A DNA stretch of 64,000 bases from Rhizophagus irregularis. Its lineage: Eukaryota > Glomeromycota > Glomeromycetes > Glomerales > Glomeraceae. Of this stretch, positions 20,291-64,000 are shown piece after piece. Under the pieces are notes generated by a model. That model had not been told where the DNA came from. It did no database searches and was given only the letters and a program-made list of their open reading frames with translations. The DNA lies in NCBI RefSeq assembly GCF_026210795.1, contig NC_089460.1, positions 248,001 to 312,000 on the forward strand, given 5' to 3'. Positions within the stretch are counted from its first letter, which is position 1. Every line of letters starts with the position of its first letter. The position numbers were made by a program, and so were the translations under genes.

Positions 20291-21066
20291 GTATAGCGAA
20301 CATCCCTTATATTGTCACATTATTGCTGATCATTTGCCGATTATTTATTAATCATCTTTTCAATATTGTTACATAAAAAAAATACTATCTGATTAATATA
20401 TAAAGCTGAAATGATGTTTGATTTGACAATTTTGAAGGTAAAATTGATCAATATTAACAGAAATTATATCAATACATGTAAATTTTTATAATTAATAAAT
20501 AAAATGAAAATTCAAATTTTATAATCTTGAGATCCAGTGAACATATTCTAATGAATTATATACTATTAGATTGGTCTCAGTGAAAGGATTCGAATGGTAG
20601 TAAAATTATTACCATCAGATTCATATTGGCGAAGTTATTGCATTTTAAAATTTTGTACTAAATTAAATAGTAATATTATTAGTATTAATAATTGCAAATA
20701 TTAATTTGGCTATAACTTTGTATTACCTAAAATTATGCTGTGTTATTTCGGCCATTAATTTTAAAGACATTAATCTATAACTCATAAAAATTTCAAGTTT
20801 CACCTGAACTTCTGTAGCTTTGCCCGAAGCTTCAAAGTTTGATTAGAAAATAATCAGCATATATTAATTAACTTTAGCATTACATTTTATTTTAGCACAA
20901 AATTTTTATATTAAACTGTTAATACTTAAAACTATTAAATAAAATAATTTAATGTGATTTTTTTTACATATTTATGGTTTAAAATAATGCTTCAAAGTTA
21001 ATGTGATGTCACATATATTATGATTGGCAAATGATCAGCATGTGATAATAAGCATGTTCGCTATGC
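20291..21066. mobile_element. TIR element (776 bp) with long inverted ends
   Basis: Left end GTATAGCGAACAT...TGCTGATCATTTGCC (20291-20341) is matched in reverse by 21020-21066. A further copy of the left end, CAGCATAGCAGACAT...GATCATTTGTCAATC, starts near 21080 in head-to-head arrangement, so a second, incomplete element adjoins it. The interior is AT-rich without a transposase. Confidence 0.6.
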
Positions 21067-21499
21067 TTCCTAAAACAGCATAGCAGACATTTCTATTTTA
21101 TCATAATTTTGTTGATCATTTGTCAATCATTTGTGTGATCTTATCACATAATACAAGTGCCATCTGTTATTTATCAACAGATAATAGGAAAAAATTTTAT
21201 AAAATAAATAATTTACTTTTATATTTTCAAAATCTAAATAAAAAGATTTTGTTCTTTTATTAAAAGTCCATTAATAACAAATAATTAGCTAAATTCTCTA
21301 TAAGCAAAAAACCTGTATTATAGGCCAAAATCCTGTATTATTTTTTTTGTAAATTATATATGATAAAAAGAATGTTTATGCAAAGTTTTAAGTTTCGGCC
21401 TTGCATATTCAGTTCTGGCCATCAATTTTTGTCTGGTGATCAGCCAAAATCACTGGCCAAAATTGATGCTATCATCGGGAAATTTTTTAAGATGCAGAA

Positions 21500-21770
21500 C
21501 TGCGGAGATCTGTAAAATTAGCAGATCTCCGCATTTTTTTTGTGAATTTATGCGGAAGTCTGCGATTTTGCAGATTTCTGCTTTTTATTTTTTACAAAGT
21601 TATGCAATAATCTGCAATTTTGCAAGTTTCCAATTTTTTATGTATGAATTTCTGCAGTAATCTGTGATTTTGCAGATTTCTGCTTTTTTTTATGTGAAAT
21701 TTATGCAGAAGTCTGCAATTTTGCAGATTTTTGCTTTTTTTTCATTAAAATATCAGTTCGATCTGCAATT
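21500..21770. repeat. Subterminal tandem repeats (TTTTGCAGATTTCTGC type)
   Basis: About five imperfect copies, roughly 60 bp apart, of a unit reading GAATTTATGCGGAAGTCTGC followed by GATTTTGCAGATTTCTGC and a T-run. The right side of the element has matching CTGCGCAGAT words. Confidence 0.65.
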
Positions 21771-22039
21771 TCATCATTGATTTAATATTTAAACTTTGAT
21801 TAACTCTAACTTGATTTAATTTTTTTTACAATACTCTTTAAAAAAAAAAACTTTACAAGACTTTAAAAAAATAATTTTTTCTACAACACTTATTACTAAA
21901 GAAGTGAAATAATTTTTTCTACAACACCTTTTAGGAAATAATCTGTTAAAGATTTCAAAGAAAAAATATTTCTATTATAGTTTTTTAAGCTTTGAAACTT
22001 ATCAGAGAAATTTTTTTTTTAAAAAAAAAATTTATTTGC

Positions 22040-24330
22040 AAGGTTCGAGTCTTTAAGGCAAATTCGTCCAACATTCGGCATATAATCTGCAACATGCAGG
22101 AGATTCGGACTAAAAAGATGTCGGACTCCTTTATCTCCTTCAAAAAATACATTTTACAGAACGCCGAAGTCTCCATTTCAAACTTTGATATTAGTATTAT
22201 TTAACGAATGTTAGAAAATGTTCGTTTTATTAATCCGAAACACAAATGGTACGTCCTGGACTCCATTTCAAAAAAAAAAAAATTTAACGAAACATTAGCT
22301 AAAGTTCGTTTTATTTTTTTTTTTGTAAGTCCAGAGCGCTGAAAGTACCAGTTCCGGACTCTATTTCGAAGGTAAAACTTCAAAACTAATATTTTTTATA
22401 TACCGGACGTTGTCCAACGTTCAGTTTATTATTTTCTTGTCCTGGACGCCAAAGAATGGCTCCGGACTCTTATTTCGAAGGTAAAACCTTTACCTTCAAA
22501 TTTTTTATATATTTTTGTTTAACGAACGTCGCTAACGTTCGTTTTTACGTTTTATAGGTTCTGGACGCCAAAGAACGGCTCCGGATGTTTATTTCGAAGG
22601 TAAAGTTTACCTTCGAAATATTTTTTAATTTTATTTTAATGAACGTTAATTAATGTTCGTTTTTACATTTTATAGGTCCTGGACACCAAAGAACGGCTCC
22701 GGACATTTATTTCGAAGGTAAAGTTTACCTTTGAAATATTTTTTTAATTTTATTTTAACGAACGTTAATTAACGTTCGTTTTTACGTTTTATAGGTCTTG
22801 GACGCCAAAGAATGGCTCCAGATGTTTATTTCGAAGGTAAAGTTTACCTTCGAAATATTTTTTTTTTTTATAATTTAACTTTAATGAACGTTAGTTACGT
22901 TCGTTTTTGTATTTTATAGGTCCAGAACGCTGAAGGTATGTTCTGGACCCATTTGAAAGTTCTGTTTGAAGGTAAAACTTTCAAATTATTTCTTTTAATT
23001 AATTTATTAATGAAACGTTCAGTTTATAACGTTTCGTTTCTTTTTTTTCAGGTAAAGGAAGCCGAAACAAGTTCCGGACTTCCATATCGAAGGTAAAACA
23101 AACCTTCGAAAATTAATTTTTTTTTTAATTAATTTATTGACGAAACGTTTCTGATGTTTCATCTCTTTTTTTTTAGGCAAAGGAATCTGAAACAAGTTCC
23201 GGACTCCCATATCGAAGGTAAGACCCTTCGAAAAAATTAATTTTTTTTAATATTTTTATTTAGCGAAACATTAACAAACGTTTCGTCTTTTTTTTTAGGC
23301 AAGAAAATCCGAAACCGAGTTTTGGACTCCTATATCAAAGGTAAAACCCTTCAAAAATTTTATTTTTTTTAATATTTTTATTAACGAACGTTAACTAACG
23401 TTCGTGTTTCTTTTTTTTTAGGCAAGGGAATCCGAAAACGAGTTCCAGACTCCCATATCGAAGGTAAAACCTTTGAAATTTTTTTTTCTTTTTTATTTAT
23501 TGACGAATGTAACTAACGTTCGTATTTCCTTTTTTTTTTAGATAAAGGAAGCCGAAAATGAGTTCAGTCTCCCATATCGAAGGTAAAACCTTCAAAAAAA
23601 TTTTTTTTTAATAATTATACTTAACGAAGCGTTTTCTAACGTTTGTTTTTGTATTTTGTAGAAACACAGCTCTCTGGACGCTCCTGAACAGAATTTTTAA
23701 GGTAACCTTCGAAATTCTGTTTTTTTTTGTTTTTATTTAAACAAAACGTTAGCTAACGTTTCGTTTTTCTTTTTTGTTGTAGGTTTCGGTACTCCAAGGT
23801 TTCTGAAACAAGTAAATGGTAAGTTTCGCAACTCTCATTGCGAAACTTTAAAATTTATTTTTTTTTTCAAAGAACGTTTCTAACGTTCTTTCTTCTTTAT
23901 ATAGGGACGCCGAACTTCTTTAGACGAACCAGACTTGGAGATTTTTTCAGGATTTCGAAGGTATTTACCTTCGAAATTAATTTTTTTTTAATGTTTAACG
24001 AAACATTTACTAACGTTTCGTTTGTCTTTTCTTTTTACTTTTTGCAGGTTTACGGCTTCTGGACAGAATTTCGAAGGTAAAATTCCTTCAAAATTCTTTC
24101 ATGTTTTTTAATTTGCGAAACGTTTACTAACGTTTTAGTTGTTTTTTTCTGTAGGGTTTTTTTCTCTGGCTCCTGGACGAAAGAATTTGAAGGTATATCT
24201 TCAAAATTCTTTATAATTTTTTTTATTCTTCTTTAACGAACGTTCTACTAACGTTCATTTTACTTTATTTTTTAGATCCTGAGATTTCGTGTCAAACATT
24301 TTGAAAGTAATAACTTTGAAATGATTTTCT
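22040..24330 (+). repeat. Tandem array of about 18 intron/microexon-like units (period about 109-135 bp)
   Basis: Each unit has, in order on the plus strand: a hairpin of AACGAACGTTAACGTTCG type, often containing CTAAC; a T-tract ending TAG or CAG; a 41-42 nt core; and GTAAAR. This is the order branch site, acceptor, exon, donor. Clean 42-nt cores are 22558-22599, 22676-22717, 22795-22836, 23299-23340 and 23422-23463. Read in phase 0 they give 14-residue repeats such as VLDAKERLRTFISK and ARESENEFQTPISK, all ending (F/P)ISK. Other cores are 41 nt (23052, 23177, 23542), 40, 36, 56 or 29 nt, and one (22439-22480) lacks an AG, so the frame is not kept throughout. A longer open exon (near 22041-22197) precedes the array and an apparent tail with GT/TA-rich 3' sequence follows. 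Whether it is a live gene, a decayed one or a satellite that mimics introns cannot be settled here. Confidence 0.55.
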
Positions 24331-24783
24331 TATTTCTAACAAACATCTCTGATTTTCTATTTTATTTTGTTGTTTGTTGGAATCGAACCAACTGGAACAA
24401 TGTCCAAACCATTAACAACATGTAAATGTGCAGTAAAGAGATGATAAATAGCAATGACTAGTAATAGATTTCAATTGTATTTGTAAACTTGTTAATATAT
24501 AATAATAATAAAAACGTAATTTTGATTATATAAATAAATTAGTAGTAATTAATGCAATAAATTAATTTGTATTATTGTGATGCAGATTTTTACTGAAAAA
24601 AATTGCTGAGGTATTTCGAAGGTTTTTTATTTAAAAATCTGCGCAGAACTTTGTTATTTTTAAAATCTGCGCAGTTTTTTATTGGATTTTTCCTTTAATA
24701 TTTTGCGCCAGGGTATAAGATCTGCGTAGATATAATTTCTGAAAATCTGCGCAGATCTGCTCCCCAAAAAATTTCCCGATGAT

Positions 24784-24985
24784 CAGGTACATATCGGGTA
24801 CCTATATATCAGTGACTAATTAGATACATATTGGACATTTATTATATATTGGGTACCTGATATGTAACATATCAAACATGCCTAAAAATTGGATTCCCGA
24901 TATCTAAACGATTAGTCACTGATATGTAATAGTGAATCAATCTTACATATATCGGGTACTGATATGCAAAATATTTATTTATTGT
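24784..24985. repeat. GGGTACCTGATATG repeat block, right-hand part
   Basis: Repeated ATATCGGGTACC and GATATGTAA words in both orientations (for example GATTAGTCACTGATATG and its inverse CAGTGACTAATTAGATAC). Related to 20108-20255 and 58712-58992. Confidence 0.5.
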
Positions 24986-25297
24986 ACTATTTGTATTATA
25001 TAATCCAAAGAGGTATATTAAAATTATTACTAAAAAAAGTATTTTAATATTAAAGATAATTGTTTATTCATATAAAATCTCTTATTTTCAATTTTTTTTA
25101 TTTTTTCTGATATCACGAATAACTGACGAAAATATTAAAAATATACATATTTTATTTTAAAATTAATTGGATTGAATGTTCAAATTAATCTTACATACAA
25201 CTTTATTTTAATCAATTTGTATAAATGCCAATTGATAAGAATAACCTAATAAAAGTATTTAATCTAATAATTTAATTTAATTTTTATTTTTATTTTT

Positions 25298-25701
25298 TTA
25301 TTTTTTTCTCCTTTTTTTTGCTTTTTTTGTTTTTTTAATTTTTTCTTTTTTATTTTCATATTCATCGTTATGATATTCGTCATTTTCTTCATCTTGATCA
25401 GTATTATAATTATATGTTGGAATTTCATTTGTTGAACGATTAAATCTTTTAAGAGTCTCATCGGTCAGACACCAATTTTGTATATCCACTGGAGGCATAC
25501 TTGTTGTTGTTTTACATTTTTGAACTCTTTTAATTTTTAGAATTCGAGGTTTTTTCATCAGTTTTTCAACGGTCAGATCAATCTGATCATATAATAAACA
25601 CAATAAATAATTACTATTAATAAATAAAATAAATAAAATAAAAAAATAATCATAAATATATAGTACATACTGCAGAAGAACGCCACTATGTTTTATATAT
25701 A
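25298..25701 (-). pseudogene. 3' part of an unknown host gene split by the CACTA element
   Basis: The last exon, 25582-25298, opens after an acceptor GATCAG and encodes IDLTVEKLMKKPRILKIKRV, then a linker, and ends in a Lys-rich tail (about 95 codons). Upstream lies an intron with donor GTATGT near 25668, then a short coding-like stretch up to the transposon at 25702. The 5' part of the same gene lies beyond the transposon at 32338-33074. I do not recognise the protein. Its basic tail suggests a nuclear or nucleic-acid-associated role, but that is only composition. Confidence 0.5.
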
Positions 25702-26086: not shown

Positions 26087-29000
26087 TCAGCGAATATGAA
26101 ATTTTCTATTGACTGGATTTACCGCTAAATAGACGTTTGAACTTCTTCTGCCTGAAATTTGGTATTTCGTTAGTATAAATCGGCCAAGAATATGATGAAC
26201 TGGAATAATACAGTCGCGGGATTCTGGGTAAAACTCAGTACTCCATAATTCAACATTGCATATTTCGTCATCTCTAACTCTGAAATGATACCGAATATTT
26301 GATGATTCTGCAGGTTTATACCAGCGAATAAATGCTAGATTATGTTCGGATAACCCATCTGGCAAATTAACGGCATGTGTAAAAAAGTATTGGACTTGTC
26401 CAGGATAGCAATTGATATCACCACTTTCTGTTATAAATTTTGCCAAGATAAATGAGCTTTTTACATGACGTGATGATATCGAAGAGCCGAATATTTCAGA
26501 ACCAATTCGGCACCTTCCAAATTGATTCATTTTAACTTGAACTATTATCGAATCTTCTGCACCTTCTCCAAATGGTTTCCGAAATTCCATCGTTTCGTAG
26601 CTCACCATGTAGTATTCAACTATTAAGTCAAGCATATCACTTGACATTACAATATCGTTAAATACTGGTCTGAGCATTTCGCCCAGAAATGCTTCTTTTC
26701 CTGTGGTGGTCGATTCATGAATGTTTCTCGAAGTCAGCGAAATGCCTTTCATTTCGTCTTGACAGAAAATTGGTCGACTTCTGATAGAGAGCCAACAGAT
26801 GGTCTATTACTAATCAAATCTAGGCCCTTTGATTTCACGCCGGAATTAATGATATTACTGATTTGATTATCAAACATCAGGCGGCGCATAATTTCCAGTT
26901 CAATTTTCCTTCTGCTATTCGGAAAAGAGCCTAAATTTATTTTAAACAAAAGTTGATAAAAATGCATTATTTTAGAAAGTAACAAGAATATTTAAAATAT
27001 TATACCTAGCATGCCATTCATGCTCTCAAAGGAAAAACACCAGAATGTATATAAAGGTCCATAGTCGAGTGAGCATTCACATAAGTGAAGTGATAAATGT
27101 AAATTCGGTGTGATTTTATCACGACCGTAATTTTCTTCTATCAACTTCACTAGGTTAATTAGCCTCTGATGCGCCTCTTTCATGAAATCGACTTCTACAA
27201 TTCGACTTACTGAAATTGAACAAATTCTCACAAAATTCACGAGAATCTTCTGGTCATTCTCAGAAAGATGTTCCCAGAGAGAGACCGTTGCATATATTGT
27301 AAAAAATATTCGCCATTGATCCGCAGTAAAATTTGAAAACCCATCTCCACAATCGACTTTTCCCGAGATTCGACTCAAGTCAGCTGGAACTTTAAATTCA
27401 TCCATTTTTTTCTGAACTGTTTTCAAAATATGTGTTGTTAATACGCCATTTTCGATCCAAAGTCTTCTTACAATCCATTTTGCGATGCCCAGAAACAAGC
27501 AGTGCATCGGGTCGATTGTAATGAACCAAATTGGATTGAAATATGGTAGACGCAATAATTCGGACCATCTAACTCCAGTTTGCTTTACAAATCGTTTTCT
27601 TGCTGCGTCCGAATTACAGCGTCTCCATCCTATAGCATCTTGACGATGTTGAGCCGAATCACGGCAAGTAAACCATTCGTCCATTTCATTTATCCCAGCG
27701 AAATTATGCTGCCGATTTTCATAATTCGCCTTCTTTTCGCATCTATGACACGACACCAAAGCGGAAATATGTCCGCAAATTTTTCTTGCAGCTGGTATGT
27801 CACATGAAACAAGAATCAGAGCTGCGCGAATTCTTTTCCCTTCTTGACATTCATACATTTGATTTAATGTCACTCCTTCCCAAAGTGACTTCAACTCATC
27901 AATGATTGGTGCCAGATAGTGATTAATCTTATGTAAACTTACTTCATCTGGGCCGGGTAATAAGCCAAGAATCAAGATATTATTGCGCTTAAATCTGACA
28001 TCCCTCGGAAGGTTACCGAGTGCAGCGTATATTACTCCAGTGCTGTGGATTGTGCCGTCGAAGGATTGAAACCAATCCAAATTCAAAATCAATCCGAGGT
28101 GCGAATCAGTAACATCAGATCAGAAAAAATTATTCGAACTTTCATCTGTCGTTTCTTTAAAAGTTTTCCAAACTTCACCATTGTATATATCAGTTAGGAT
28201 ATTATTGAAAGTTGGACGATTTATCCAATGCCTTAGAGAATTTTCAAAGTTAGGTTGACGATACATTGCTTCCAATTGCTGCTTAATACTCACAAACGGA
28301 AATAATAATTCAGGTTTGATTGAAATTTGGTTATTTAACAATGTTGTTTTCTGTGCCAAAGGTGTTTGGCACAACCTTAATCTTCTAGTTGTCGAATTAG
28401 AAAATTCGACATGGCAACACTTCATGATGGCAGGTTGCTCATTTTGGAGAAAACTTTTTATTTCCTGTTTGTTGTATAATTTGTGGCATTTTGAACACGC
28501 CACAAAACTATGAAACCGGTCTTCAAGATTAAGGGCTTTTCTTGCTAGATATAAAGTGTCAGGAAATGTGTCAAAATCAGGACTACCGATTTCTGTTAGA
28601 ACAAGCTTCAAGAATTTTATCAATGATTCTGTAGCTGTTTCTGGTAAGTTAAACCTGGTTCAGAAGCTCATGATCCATAATAATATCCATAAGAACTGAT
28701 TATTTATTGATTGTTCAGTATCAGAATCTTGAAATGGTTCAAAAGGTGGACATGAATAATCTTCAAAAATTTCGTGGTATTCGTCATCATTGGATGGTTC
28801 ATTATCGGATGATTCATTTCTATCATCGATATTTGCATCTTCCTCCGTAGTATATTCAGAAGATTCAGAAGATTTATCATCTACTATATCTCCTAATTCA
28901 GCAATTATAACCGGTCGAACATATTTTCTTGATCGTTGTCTACTAGGCAATTCAGCTTCCGATTCTCTCATTCGTGGTTCATCTGATATTGAGGCATTTT

Positions 29001-54385: not shown

Positions 54386-54552
54386 CAGTCAACTCTCTTT
54401 ATAGTCACACATTTGGGACAGTCCATATTTGGTAATTATAAAGAGATGTGACTATATAAAAAATTTCTTATATTTGTATATCATAATTCCGGCCAAAAAT
54501 TAGCATAATTTTAGCCAGAATTATACTTAAAACTTTATTGTATCGTAACTTC

Positions 54553-54993
54553 GCCAATATTAATTGTAAAGAGATGATCTTACCGCCATTCGATTCGTCT
54601 TGATGAGACGGTTCTAATGGTATAAAATATGTCGAAATCCAATCACTAGATTAATTTCCGATATTAAAAAAATATTAATGGTTTTTGTGTAATAACTCTG
54701 CCAATATTGATTCTAGAAAGACGATCTTACTACCATTCGATTCGTCTTGATGAGACGAATCTAATGGTATAAGATACATCGAAATCCAATCACTAGATCA
54801 ATTTCCGAAATTAAAAAATATTAAATGGTTTTTAAGTAATAACTCCGTCAATATTGATCACAGAGAGATGAGCTTACCATCATTCGATTCGTCTCGATGA
54901 GGCGATTCCAACGAGCTATAAATCGTCTTTTTACAATTACTAGGTACCAAGAAATCTAGCAAAATGTTAAATGGCGCAGTAAACGTAAATCAA
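54553..54993. repeat. 147-bp satellite, three units
   Basis: The CGATTCGTCT core recurs at 54591, 54738 and 54885, exactly 147 bp apart. Each unit also has (G/T)CCAATATTGATT, GATCTTACTACCATT, CACTAGAT and ATTAATGGTTTTT words. A fourth, partial core lies at 56068-56100 after the retroposon. Confidence 0.85.
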
Positions 54994-61150: not shown

Positions 61151-64000
61151 TAGAGTTTGGAACTGGTTGCATTTTTGAAAACCAAATTTAAAACGGGTGC
61201 AACCGGTTGGACCCTTTTTAAATCGGTTTTTGCAAAATCGGTTGAAACTGATTTATACACCCAGTTTATATTTATTTAATTATCAATTACATATCATTTT
61301 TTTTAAACGAAATAAACAGCTTAATGATCACGTGATGTAGATCATTTCATTTTACTATAACGAATAAATAATGAGCTGCACGTTCCTTATGAAATTATAC
61401 AATGATCTGTATCTAAACCAGATCGGGATTAGGCTGCAGCTAATTTTTTCCAAACAAACTACATCATAATCAAAATAGTTCTCACATGAATTCCATGAAT
61501 TCATGAAAATTCACAATGAATTCATAAAATAATTCTCACATGTAGTTGTTTAAATCACCGCATTCTCTAAAAACTTGTAGACATTCTTTTTTTGCTATTA
61601 AAATGTCAAGTTCACCATACACATTTTCTGACTCTGAAACAATTGATAATACTAATTCCACGATAAGTGAGAGTAATACCATTATACAAAATCAACGTCA
61701 GCAAATTTCCTCAACACGAAAAAACCGCAGCCATACAATATTTTTTTTTCGCGTAGATGGTGATTTTGCCTATTGTAAAATTTGTGAATCAAATTTTGCC
61801 AACACAAATAAAAGAGCTTATGGCTATAGTCAGAAAGGTGGGAATACAACTAATCTCATAGCACACTTAAGAGATAAGCATAATATAACTAAAGATAATT
61901 ATTCAGAATATCTGGATGAACACGAAGAGGTATTTCATTTTTTAATTAAGTCATGTGATTATGTCATACAAAAATTTTTTTATAAACTATAAATATTATC
62001 TATTAGCCAATTACTGAACTCGCAAATCATCTTTCAACAACATGTTCTCCTAAACGACAAGAATTAATCACCAGAAAAGTTACTGCTTTTATTATCAAAA
62101 ATGTTTAACCTTTATTTGTATTACAAAATCAAGCATTTCAAGATCTTTTATTAACATGTGAACTGGGTTATAAAATTCCCTGTGATAAATCTATTAAACA
62201 AATGCTTTTTTTAGCATACACATGGAGTAAAAACAACTTCAATCCTTATTACAAGATACAGCAGTAACAGTACACCTGACGACTGATCTTTGGACATCTA
62301 AATCCCGACATGGTTACCTTGGTGTGACTGCAACATGGTTAACTGCGGACTTTGAGTTTCAAGAAACTCTATTATCATGCAACCACCTTCCTTATCCTCA
62401 CACTGGTGAGGTTATTTGTGAAGAATTATTTCAAATATTAGAAAGTTGGAATCTGAAATAAACAGCTTTTACAGTAGCAACTGACAATGGAATGAATATG
62501 GTAAAAGCAGTTCGTTTATTAACAGAAAATTATTTTGACCAAATTCAACACCAGTCTTGTGTTGCACATACTTTGCAACTTTCAGTAATGGAAGGTTTAA
62601 AGCAATGTAAAGCATTCCATCGTCGAATAAAAAGTTTACAGACCTTTTTTTGCTTACCTAAACAGGCTGAAAGACTTCATTCAGCACAACAACAAAATTT
62701 CCAAATAAATTTATCTGAAAATGAATATATGAATCCACTAGAAGTTTTGACAGATGTCAAAACTAGGTGGAATTCTACATACTTAGCGTGGAAATGAATT
62801 CTTGAGTTACATAATTTCATGAGAAATGTATCTACAGATTTACTCTCAAAATCTGACCGAGCATCTCAAAAAGAAGGTGAAAAGCTAGAACGATTATGTT
62901 TAAGTCCAGATGAAAAAATGTAAATTTATTTATTTTTTTAGACAAATTAAATTCTTTCATTAATGTTTATATATTTTTAATAATAGATTTCTCCAGAAAA
63001 TGATTGTCACTTTGGAACCTTTTAAAACTATAACACGTAAAATTAGTGGTGCAAAATATCCAACATTAAGTCTTGTTATTCCATATATGTATTTACTTAA
63101 AAATAATTTTGCACCAAATGAGAAAGAAAATGAAACCTTAGATACCTATTTTAGTTTAATTTATGGATCTAATGGTGAAGAAGAGGATTCTGATGTGGCT
63201 AGTGATGATGAATATATTCCATCAGGTGGAACAAGACAATATTGGCAGCATTCACATCGTCAATTTCACCACCAAAGACGTGGAAATACACGAAATAGAG
63301 GTCAGAGTCGAGGTCGAGGTCGTAGAAGGGGTGGTGCATCCACATCTCATCCAGTTGAATCAAATTTGGATGATATAAATACTGTAGAATATTTACAGCC
63401 AGTAAATACTGAAGGTTTATTGCAAAAAGTTCGTGCTGCCATTTTTTTATCTTTAGATGAGCTTTGGACAGTGCCATCTAATATTATGCTTGTTGCAACA
63501 TTTCTGGATCCCCGCTTCAAAAACTTTGATTGGTGTAATGGTAATGGTAAGGATGAAGCTAAACAATTAGTTCAAGAATTGTATAATGCAAAAAAGGACT
63601 TTCTACCTCGAAATAGTATCAATAGTATTATAAGCTCTTCAGATGATGATGATGATATTTTTAAAGCACTAAAAGTTAATAAGGAAAGAGTGCAAGATGA
63701 TGATGAAGTGATGCTTTATTTGCAACAAAAACAAGTCAGATTGAAGGATGATCCATTAAAGTGGTGGTCAGTTAATGAGATTACTTTACCAATTTTAGCT
63801 CAAATTGCAAGAAAGTATTTATCCATCCCTGCAGCATCAGTACCTAGTGAGCGTCTATTCTCTGATGCTGGCAATCACATATCTGCTAGGCGGACCCGAT
63901 TATCTCCAGAGTTGGTAAACAAAATGTTGTTTTTAAAGAGAAATAGTGATATTTTTGATATTTTTCCTCCATTAAATTAGCCTAGTAGCTATATGTAACT
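61151..64000 (+). mobile_element. hAT element, left end and body (right end outside window)
   Basis: TAGAGTTTGGAACTGG at 61151 fits the YARNG start of hAT termini and abruptly interrupts the dyad-module repeat. The preceding ACTACCAC would be the 8-bp duplication, which cannot be checked because the right end is beyond the window. The body is the transposase relic at 61603-63980. The leader 61151-61600 has repeats of GGTTGCA / AATCGGTTTTTGCAAAATCG. Confidence 0.55.
61603..63980 (+). pseudogene. hAT transposase with BED zinc finger, decayed
   Basis: Exon 1 (61603-61929): MSSSPYTFSDSE, then a BED finger with YCKICESNF...NLIAHLRDKH (C-x2-C...H-x4-H). Exon 2 from 62007 (PITELANHLSTT) carries the catalytic region: LTTDLWTSKSRHGYLGVTAT, FTVATDNGMNM, SCVAHTLQLSV and TDVKTRWNSTYLAWK. 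After an intron (62920-62986), exon 3 reads FLQKMIVTLEPFKTITRKIS, an Arg/Gly insert (GQSRGRGRRRGG), MLVATFLDPRFKN, and the C-terminal hAT dimerisation block ARKYLSIPAASVPSERLFSD AG...RRTRLSPELVNKMLFLKRN. Disruptions: TAA near 62106, a frameshift near 62230, TAA near 62460 and TGA 62795-62797 (CGA expected). The ends are well preserved, so decay is moderate. Confidence 0.88.

Follow-up and report, generated by a model that had tools for sequence, protein, structure and literature searches.

A family of terminal inverted repeat (TIR) DNA transposons in Rhizophagus irregularis seems, with somewhat better than even probability, to carry a chain of spliceosomal intron/micro-exon modules that is transcribed and spliced. 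One copy of this family lies in the window, that is, the whole stretch of 64,000 nucleotides that was analysed (contig NC_089460.1, positions 248,001 to 312,000), and its array is most likely a decaying chain of such modules, grown by unit duplication. That some copies are modelled as micro-exon genes with such junctions is already known from the public annotation; new here is that two separate hairpins can form in most introns of the arrays, one with the 5' splice site and the other with the branch region. The element in the window has the following parts:

21471..21472, no strand: left copy of the 2-bp target duplication, AT
21473..24781, plus: whole TIR DNA element, which carries the array; 3,309 bp, with exact 16-nt terminal inverted repeats
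21473..21488, plus: left TIR, CATCGGGAAATTTTTT
21521..21771, plus: subterminal tandem repeats of about 50 bp, GCAGATTTCTGC-like, found by TRF
24766..24781, minus: right TIR
24782..24783, no strand: right copy of the 2-bp target duplication, AT

The exact 16-nt ends are enclosed by imperfect 39-nt inverted arms, and they match the ends of other copies. Both ends could be read in 21 copies, the window's copy counted, which are 3.3-5.2 kb long and in 17 cases have identical 2-bp flanks. The left end has at least 44 genome matches, at least 40 of them 268 bp long or longer, a lower bound for the 146.7 Mb searched in 32 contigs; a 27-nt TIR pattern with up to 3 mismatches occurs at 71 genome sites, and the copies are spread over many contigs. 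Terminal inverted repeats and a target-site duplication are thus both present, as for a non-autonomous TIR DNA transposon, and to judge from these features the carrier of the array is a TIR DNA transposon family, in agreement with the earlier note on this DNA, which had placed the array inside a transposon-like element. TIRs, 2-bp duplications and subterminal repeats are shared with TIR DNA transposons of the 2-bp duplication type, and this combination is reminiscent of CACTA-like elements; in contrast to such transposons, no transposase was found in the window's element. A scan of the window's copy for stop-to-stop open reading frames (ORFs) of at least 120 aa returned none, and this copy is therefore probably without a transposase. 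An ORF with a Transposase_21 match (tnp2, CACTA-type; 26992-28119, minus strand, E 3e-11) adjoins the element outside its ends. Transposase_21 was the one transposase family tried, and none of its listed matches was seen, by eye, within 10 kb of the listed TIR sites.

The repeat units, read along the array, are as follows:

22330..22371, plus: core with a weak acceptor (AAG), 42 nt, read from the sequence
22439..22480, plus: core without an acceptor AG (CTTG instead), donor present, read from the sequence
22558..22599, plus: core 1, 42 nt
22676..22717, plus: core 2, 42 nt
22795..22836, plus: core 3, 42 nt
22920..22971, plus: core 4, 52 nt
23052..23092, plus: core 5, 41 nt
23177..23217, plus: core 6, 41 nt
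23299..23340, plus: core 7, 42 nt
23422..23463, plus: core 8, 42 nt, encodes ARESENEFQTPISK
23542..23582, plus: core 9, 41 nt
23662..23701, plus: core 10, 40 nt
23783..23818, plus: core 11, 36 nt; a different hairpin (GTAAGTTTCGCAA..TTGCGAAACTT) opens its intron
23905..23960, plus: core 12, 56 nt
24048..24076, plus: core 13, 29 nt
24155..24192, plus: core 14, 38 nt
24276..24306, plus: last core-like stretch, then GTAATA

The 14 numbered cores, with lengths in the order given, are each flanked by an acceptor (TAG or CAG) and by a GTA donor, and the array contains 15 introns of 76-87 nt each. The earlier note had described about 18 modules of roughly 120 bp with a fixed order of motifs and a 41-42 nt core, five cores being exactly 42 nt. 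The unit length agrees with TRF periods of 119 and 123, and the count of five was confirmed, but the number 18 is reached only if weak units are included, since complete splice-site pairs were found at 14 cores, and the stated core size applies to eight of these, the other six having other lengths (29-56 nt). The order of motifs is well borne out: when it was defined as a branch-like motif, 8-40 nt, T/CAG, 25-60 nt and GGTAA, without overlaps, 13 sets were found in 22040-24330, against a mean of 0.37 and a maximum of 3 in 300 dinucleotide shuffles, and plain chance was ruled out as the source of the array because of this excess. With regard to the related phase-0 peptides that had been named, ARESENEFQTPISK is encoded at 23422, but VLDAKERLRTFISK is absent from all plus-strand frames of the window, where the nearest peptides are VLDAKERLRMFISK and VLDTKERLRTFISK.

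For comparison between copies, 40 sequences were used, consisting of the window and 39 further loci picked from the genome matches. Parsing yielded 555 donors, and the removal of 77 without an acceptor left 478 cores; the chain parser set wrong bounds for one locus (L021), which gave 0 exons, and its chains break at units without clear signals. Close copies keep the order of core lengths (37, gap, run of 42s, 46, 41, 41, 42, 42 and so on), and among copies whose flanking units agree in order, the number of 42-nt units differs. A conserved order with a variable number of 42-nt units is expected from whole-unit duplication and loss, so that these collinear copies support the proposal of tandem intron and micro-exon modules in a transposon, made by unit duplication. 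Many genomic copies with random core lengths had been taken in advance as the mark of a plain satellite; many copies do exist, but with core lengths in conserved rather than random order. The other option that had been offered, a decayed version of a modular gene, fits the reading of the window's array as decayed.

The units were found to contain a second hairpin, missed in the earlier note, in which the exon end and GGTAA pair with the start of the intron. Examples of the two hairpins are:

22588..22622, plus: donor hairpin, exon end and GTAA, 14 bp, RNA fold z -6.8
22632..22668, plus: branch-region hairpin, 10 bp, RNA fold z -2.9

Folding was assessed in 455 parsed introns, after those outside 60-100 nt had been dropped. 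The donor window has a mean of -9.4 kcal/mol, against -2.7 in mononucleotide shuffles, and windows shifted by -25, +20 and +40 nt have means of -6.6, -1.9 and -5.6 kcal/mol; the window 25 nt upstream also folds better than shuffles, and stretches neighbouring the donor therefore fold as well. Strong stems (score of at least 8) occur at 60% of donors (5% when shuffled) and 56% of branch regions (9% when shuffled), that is, in most introns of the arrays and by no means in all. No folding beyond shuffles was detected in the four cores tried (z -1.3 to 0.5). Nine control introns of 67-91 nt, a small set from only two genes (the neighbouring anoctamin and NADPH oxidase genes, mapped using R. diaphanus proteins), fold weakly, with means of -2.1 at the donor and -2.5 at the branch. 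The window's 15 introns differ from these nine at p 1.7e-4 (donor) and 8.2e-5 (branch), and one intron per locus (n=39) at p 3e-4 and 0.008, respectively. GT, branch motif and AG stand at ordinary spacing, as in U2 spliceosomal introns; CTAAC is present in 198 of the 455 introns, and in 181 its A lies 20-28 nt from the acceptor.

The stem sequences vary between units, and the branch stems show swapping of pairs, with variants such as CGAACGTT/AACGTTCG, GAAACGTT/AACGTTTC, AAAGAACGTT/AACGTTCTTT and others. Covariation of the branch stems was tested over seven outward steps with 251 distinct arm pairs and 1000 partner shuffles. At steps 2-4 the arms pair with their own partners in 79, 65 and 66% of cases, which was reached by 0 of 1000 shuffles, and at steps 1, 5, 6 and 7 own pairing was not above the 1000 shuffles. 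For the donor stem outside the core covariation is weak, with one of six steps beyond 500 shuffles. Kinship among sequences can inflate such tests, and palindrome correction at the DNA level would leave the same paired changes as conservation of a stem.

Read as a mechanism, these features suggest that the element would be transcribed and that the host spliceosome would take each spacer, of about 65-90 nt, as an intron and join the tiny exons. The hairpins may keep the 5' splice site and the branch region closed until opened, or may shorten the intron; with donor and branch set in stems or loops, recognition would be slowed or gated. U1 should be impeded by a stem of 14 bp that covers the 5' splice site, and some sites may therefore not splice. 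Arrays would grow and shrink through whole-unit exchange, tolerated because each unit brings a complete intron, so that the splicing grammar could be kept as the number of exons changes. The window's copy is most likely decaying, and its transcript, if made, would be spliced while coding for little or nothing. Two spliced junctions were searched for as retrocopies with up to 3 mismatches, and each gave 0 genome matches.

Arrays of the same plan occur with other cores. Two longer copies (L035 and L039) hold a second array whose core sequences are unrelated to those of the first; it adjoins the first array in this longer subfamily (L039:1001-2600 and L035:1580-2480). Its cores are 38-43 nt long, 67 being found over all 40 sequences, its donor hairpin reads TTCGGAG followed by GTATGCTTACCTCCGAA, and its acceptor can sit in a hairpin too (ATAG followed by GTTCC..GGAACCTAT, z -3.2, one tried). 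With up to 2 mismatches, this donor hairpin has 155 strand matches genome-wide against 0 for the reversed control, and the pattern TTCGAAGGTAN{2,16}CTTCGAA has 350 against 3, perfect palindromes being counted on both strands. Among the matches listed, the latter pattern forms 87 sites in 46 clusters; 33 of these clusters lie more than 6 kb from the TIR positions compared (one at 6.1 kb), 18 of the 33 have at least two sites, and 15 of 31 spacings are 117-137 bp. Single-site clusters also exist, and the arrays read so far are tandem. Two of these clusters, L060 and L061, were read in part. Their cores, of 42 and 44 nt, are unlike those of the window; the donor hairpin is the same, and it is accompanied by a hairpin at the branch region and by a T-rich stretch that ends in TAG. 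FERTSK-like repeats were also noticed in the R. irregularis proteins P0012, P0017 and P0018, an indication of additional array families in which exons likewise end in TTCGAAG.

The recurrence of one plan in arrays of unrelated cores counts for the module reading. A wider form of it, possible but rather doubtful, would be that mobile, self-expanding splice modules, each made up of a micro-exon and an intron, with one hairpin locking the intron's 5' splice site and another its branch point, have spread in Rhizophagus as arrays, some of them transposon-borne; transposition and duplication would then yield genes with tens of micro-exons, and hairpin opening would set which exons are joined. The same recurrence bears on the chief rival explanation, a palindromic DNA satellite, in which tandem AT-rich palindromes are kept at the DNA level by palindrome correction and unequal exchange, and the splice-like signals are by-products or fossils of one former intron. 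The stems are indeed near-perfect DNA palindromes, the changes among cores are richest at CpG sites and mostly CpG-type transitions, paired changes are also expected from palindrome correction, and the splicing of the arrays is predicted from sequence. However, GT, branch motif, T-rich stretch and AG hold intron spacing in arrays of unrelated cores, and the intron sizes equal those of ordinary genes; the satellite is an unlikely explanation.

The public protein models bear on whether the arrays code. Joined L028 cores as a query found four R. irregularis proteins at E<=1, and P0003 found 30, itself counted and one of them from R. diaphanus. In spliced alignments P0001 matched 221 of 232 residues on L030, P0003 296 of 309 on L037, and P0004 171 of 181 on L032 and only 91 on L021; P0002 aligned poorly on L039 (170 of 247). 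In the P0001 model, exons of 41 and 42 nt form runs, and their TAG acceptors are T-rich. Given the fits on L030, L037 and L032, the public annotation already uses such splice sites. The models could be ab initio predictions, because that of P0001 opens with a 3-nt ATG exon and exons are skipped, P0003 leaping 193 nt where sister copies hold a 32-nt exon. Long-read RNA has served for annotating the same R. irregularis strain, as described in PMC10234402.

A working modular protein gene, perhaps in copies other than the window's, could be read from annotated models of 181-365 aa, from stop counts that are lowest in phase 0 (17, 62 and 37 of 139 units and 2, 24 and 28 of 51 by frame), and from L028, where 12 consecutive 42-nt cores are all open in phase 0. 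It is nevertheless quite improbable. The lengths of 252 of the 478 cores are not multiples of 3 and those of 226 are (in the window, the five of 42 nt and one of 36 among 14); no third-position excess was seen among the sets of 139 and 51 cores (non-CpG variability 0.078, 0.050, 0.086); the 32-nt exon of the sister copies has a phase-0 TAA in 10 of 11 rows; and different models read one unit in different frames. A conserved protein domain in the array was rejected, as none of 10 annotated models scanned against Pfam had a family over the cut-off. In the 21 of 40 sequences kept for the ORF test (at least 10 parsed cores of 20-62 nt), the longest ORF exceeded random phase in three (p<0.05) and order shuffling in one, and in 18 the chains were no longer than under random phase. 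The earlier proposal of a protein in which every exon could be skipped in frame does not withstand these core lengths, codon positions and random-like ORFs. Evidence for a protein product of the array is poor, and for the window's copy, which we read as a decayed array, coding by its ancestor is uncertain.

Very improbable is a source of RNA hairpins, in which serial hairpins of the transcript would feed small-RNA silencing of the element with splicing incidental: each unit has two hairpins, the second array has a third over the acceptor, and CpG-type decay may point to methylated, silenced copies, but stems of 8-14 bp are short for Dicer and no Rfam family reached its gathering score in 20500-25500.

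The favoured reading, a transposon-borne chain of intron/micro-exon modules, has likenesses among known systems. Among fungi, introner-like elements and symmetrical (stw)introns form families of mutually similar introns, which fold into stable or symmetrical RNA structures and multiply in the genome (PMC3443670, PMC8469720), and near-identical introns with stable folds at several places are found here as well. In the accounts given there, introner-like elements insert singly into unrelated host genes, whereas here intron and micro-exon stand in tandem within one transposon, with separate donor and branch hairpins. Introners from DNA transposons share with the array the link of DNA transposition and introns, but carry the TSD or TIR on the introner itself, while here the TIRs bound the whole array; pezizomycotina were the only fungal group with introners in that survey's main set (PMC9860276). 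As far as these accounts extend, neither type involves tandem multiplication of introns and exons in one transposon (PMC3443670, PMC8469720, PMC9860276). Schistosoma micro-exon genes (MEGs) likewise have chains of tiny exons in TE-rich surroundings; their exons are described as symmetric, of at most 36 bp, and as coding, signal peptides included (PMC8293314), whereas most array cores break frame (226 of 478 being multiples of 3) and coding is doubtful. The SP7-like effectors of AM fungi, to which kinship had been put forward as speculation, share the fungus and the repeated modules, but SP7 genes are described as having a signal peptide and, ahead of the first repeat, a single conserved intron, in contrast to about one intron-like spacer per repeat here, and the kinship was rejected on gene structure alone (PMC11333574). 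A search of literature titles and abstract starts, with bioRxiv and most subscription papers outside its scope, found no description of this array.

If the favoured reading is true, the array would directly exemplify the joint multiplication of introns and micro-exons, as a single tandem unit, in a DNA transposon, which would bear on the origin of introns and of micro-exon genes. The hairpinned splice sites would form a natural series of hundreds of variants in which the control of splice-site selection by RNA folding could be studied. A further implication is that transposon arrays account for some of the 'uncharacterized proteins' annotated in AM fungi.

Just beyond the array lies a tRNA-like stretch with a perfect B-box-like GGTTCGATTCC (24365-24420, minus strand), which recurs with GGTTCGATTCC in the copies L023, L035 and L039. 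No tRNA was called by ARAGORN in the window, and none of 10 Rfam matches at E<=1 in 20500-25500 reached the gathering score, this stretch being included in both searches; a tRNA or known RNA family was thus ruled out as the nature of the array. Elsewhere in the window, a 147-bp tandem repeat (2.4 copies, 85% matches) occupies 54546-54905, and an ORF with a hAT dimerisation domain lies at 62964-63980 on the plus strand (E 6e-21).
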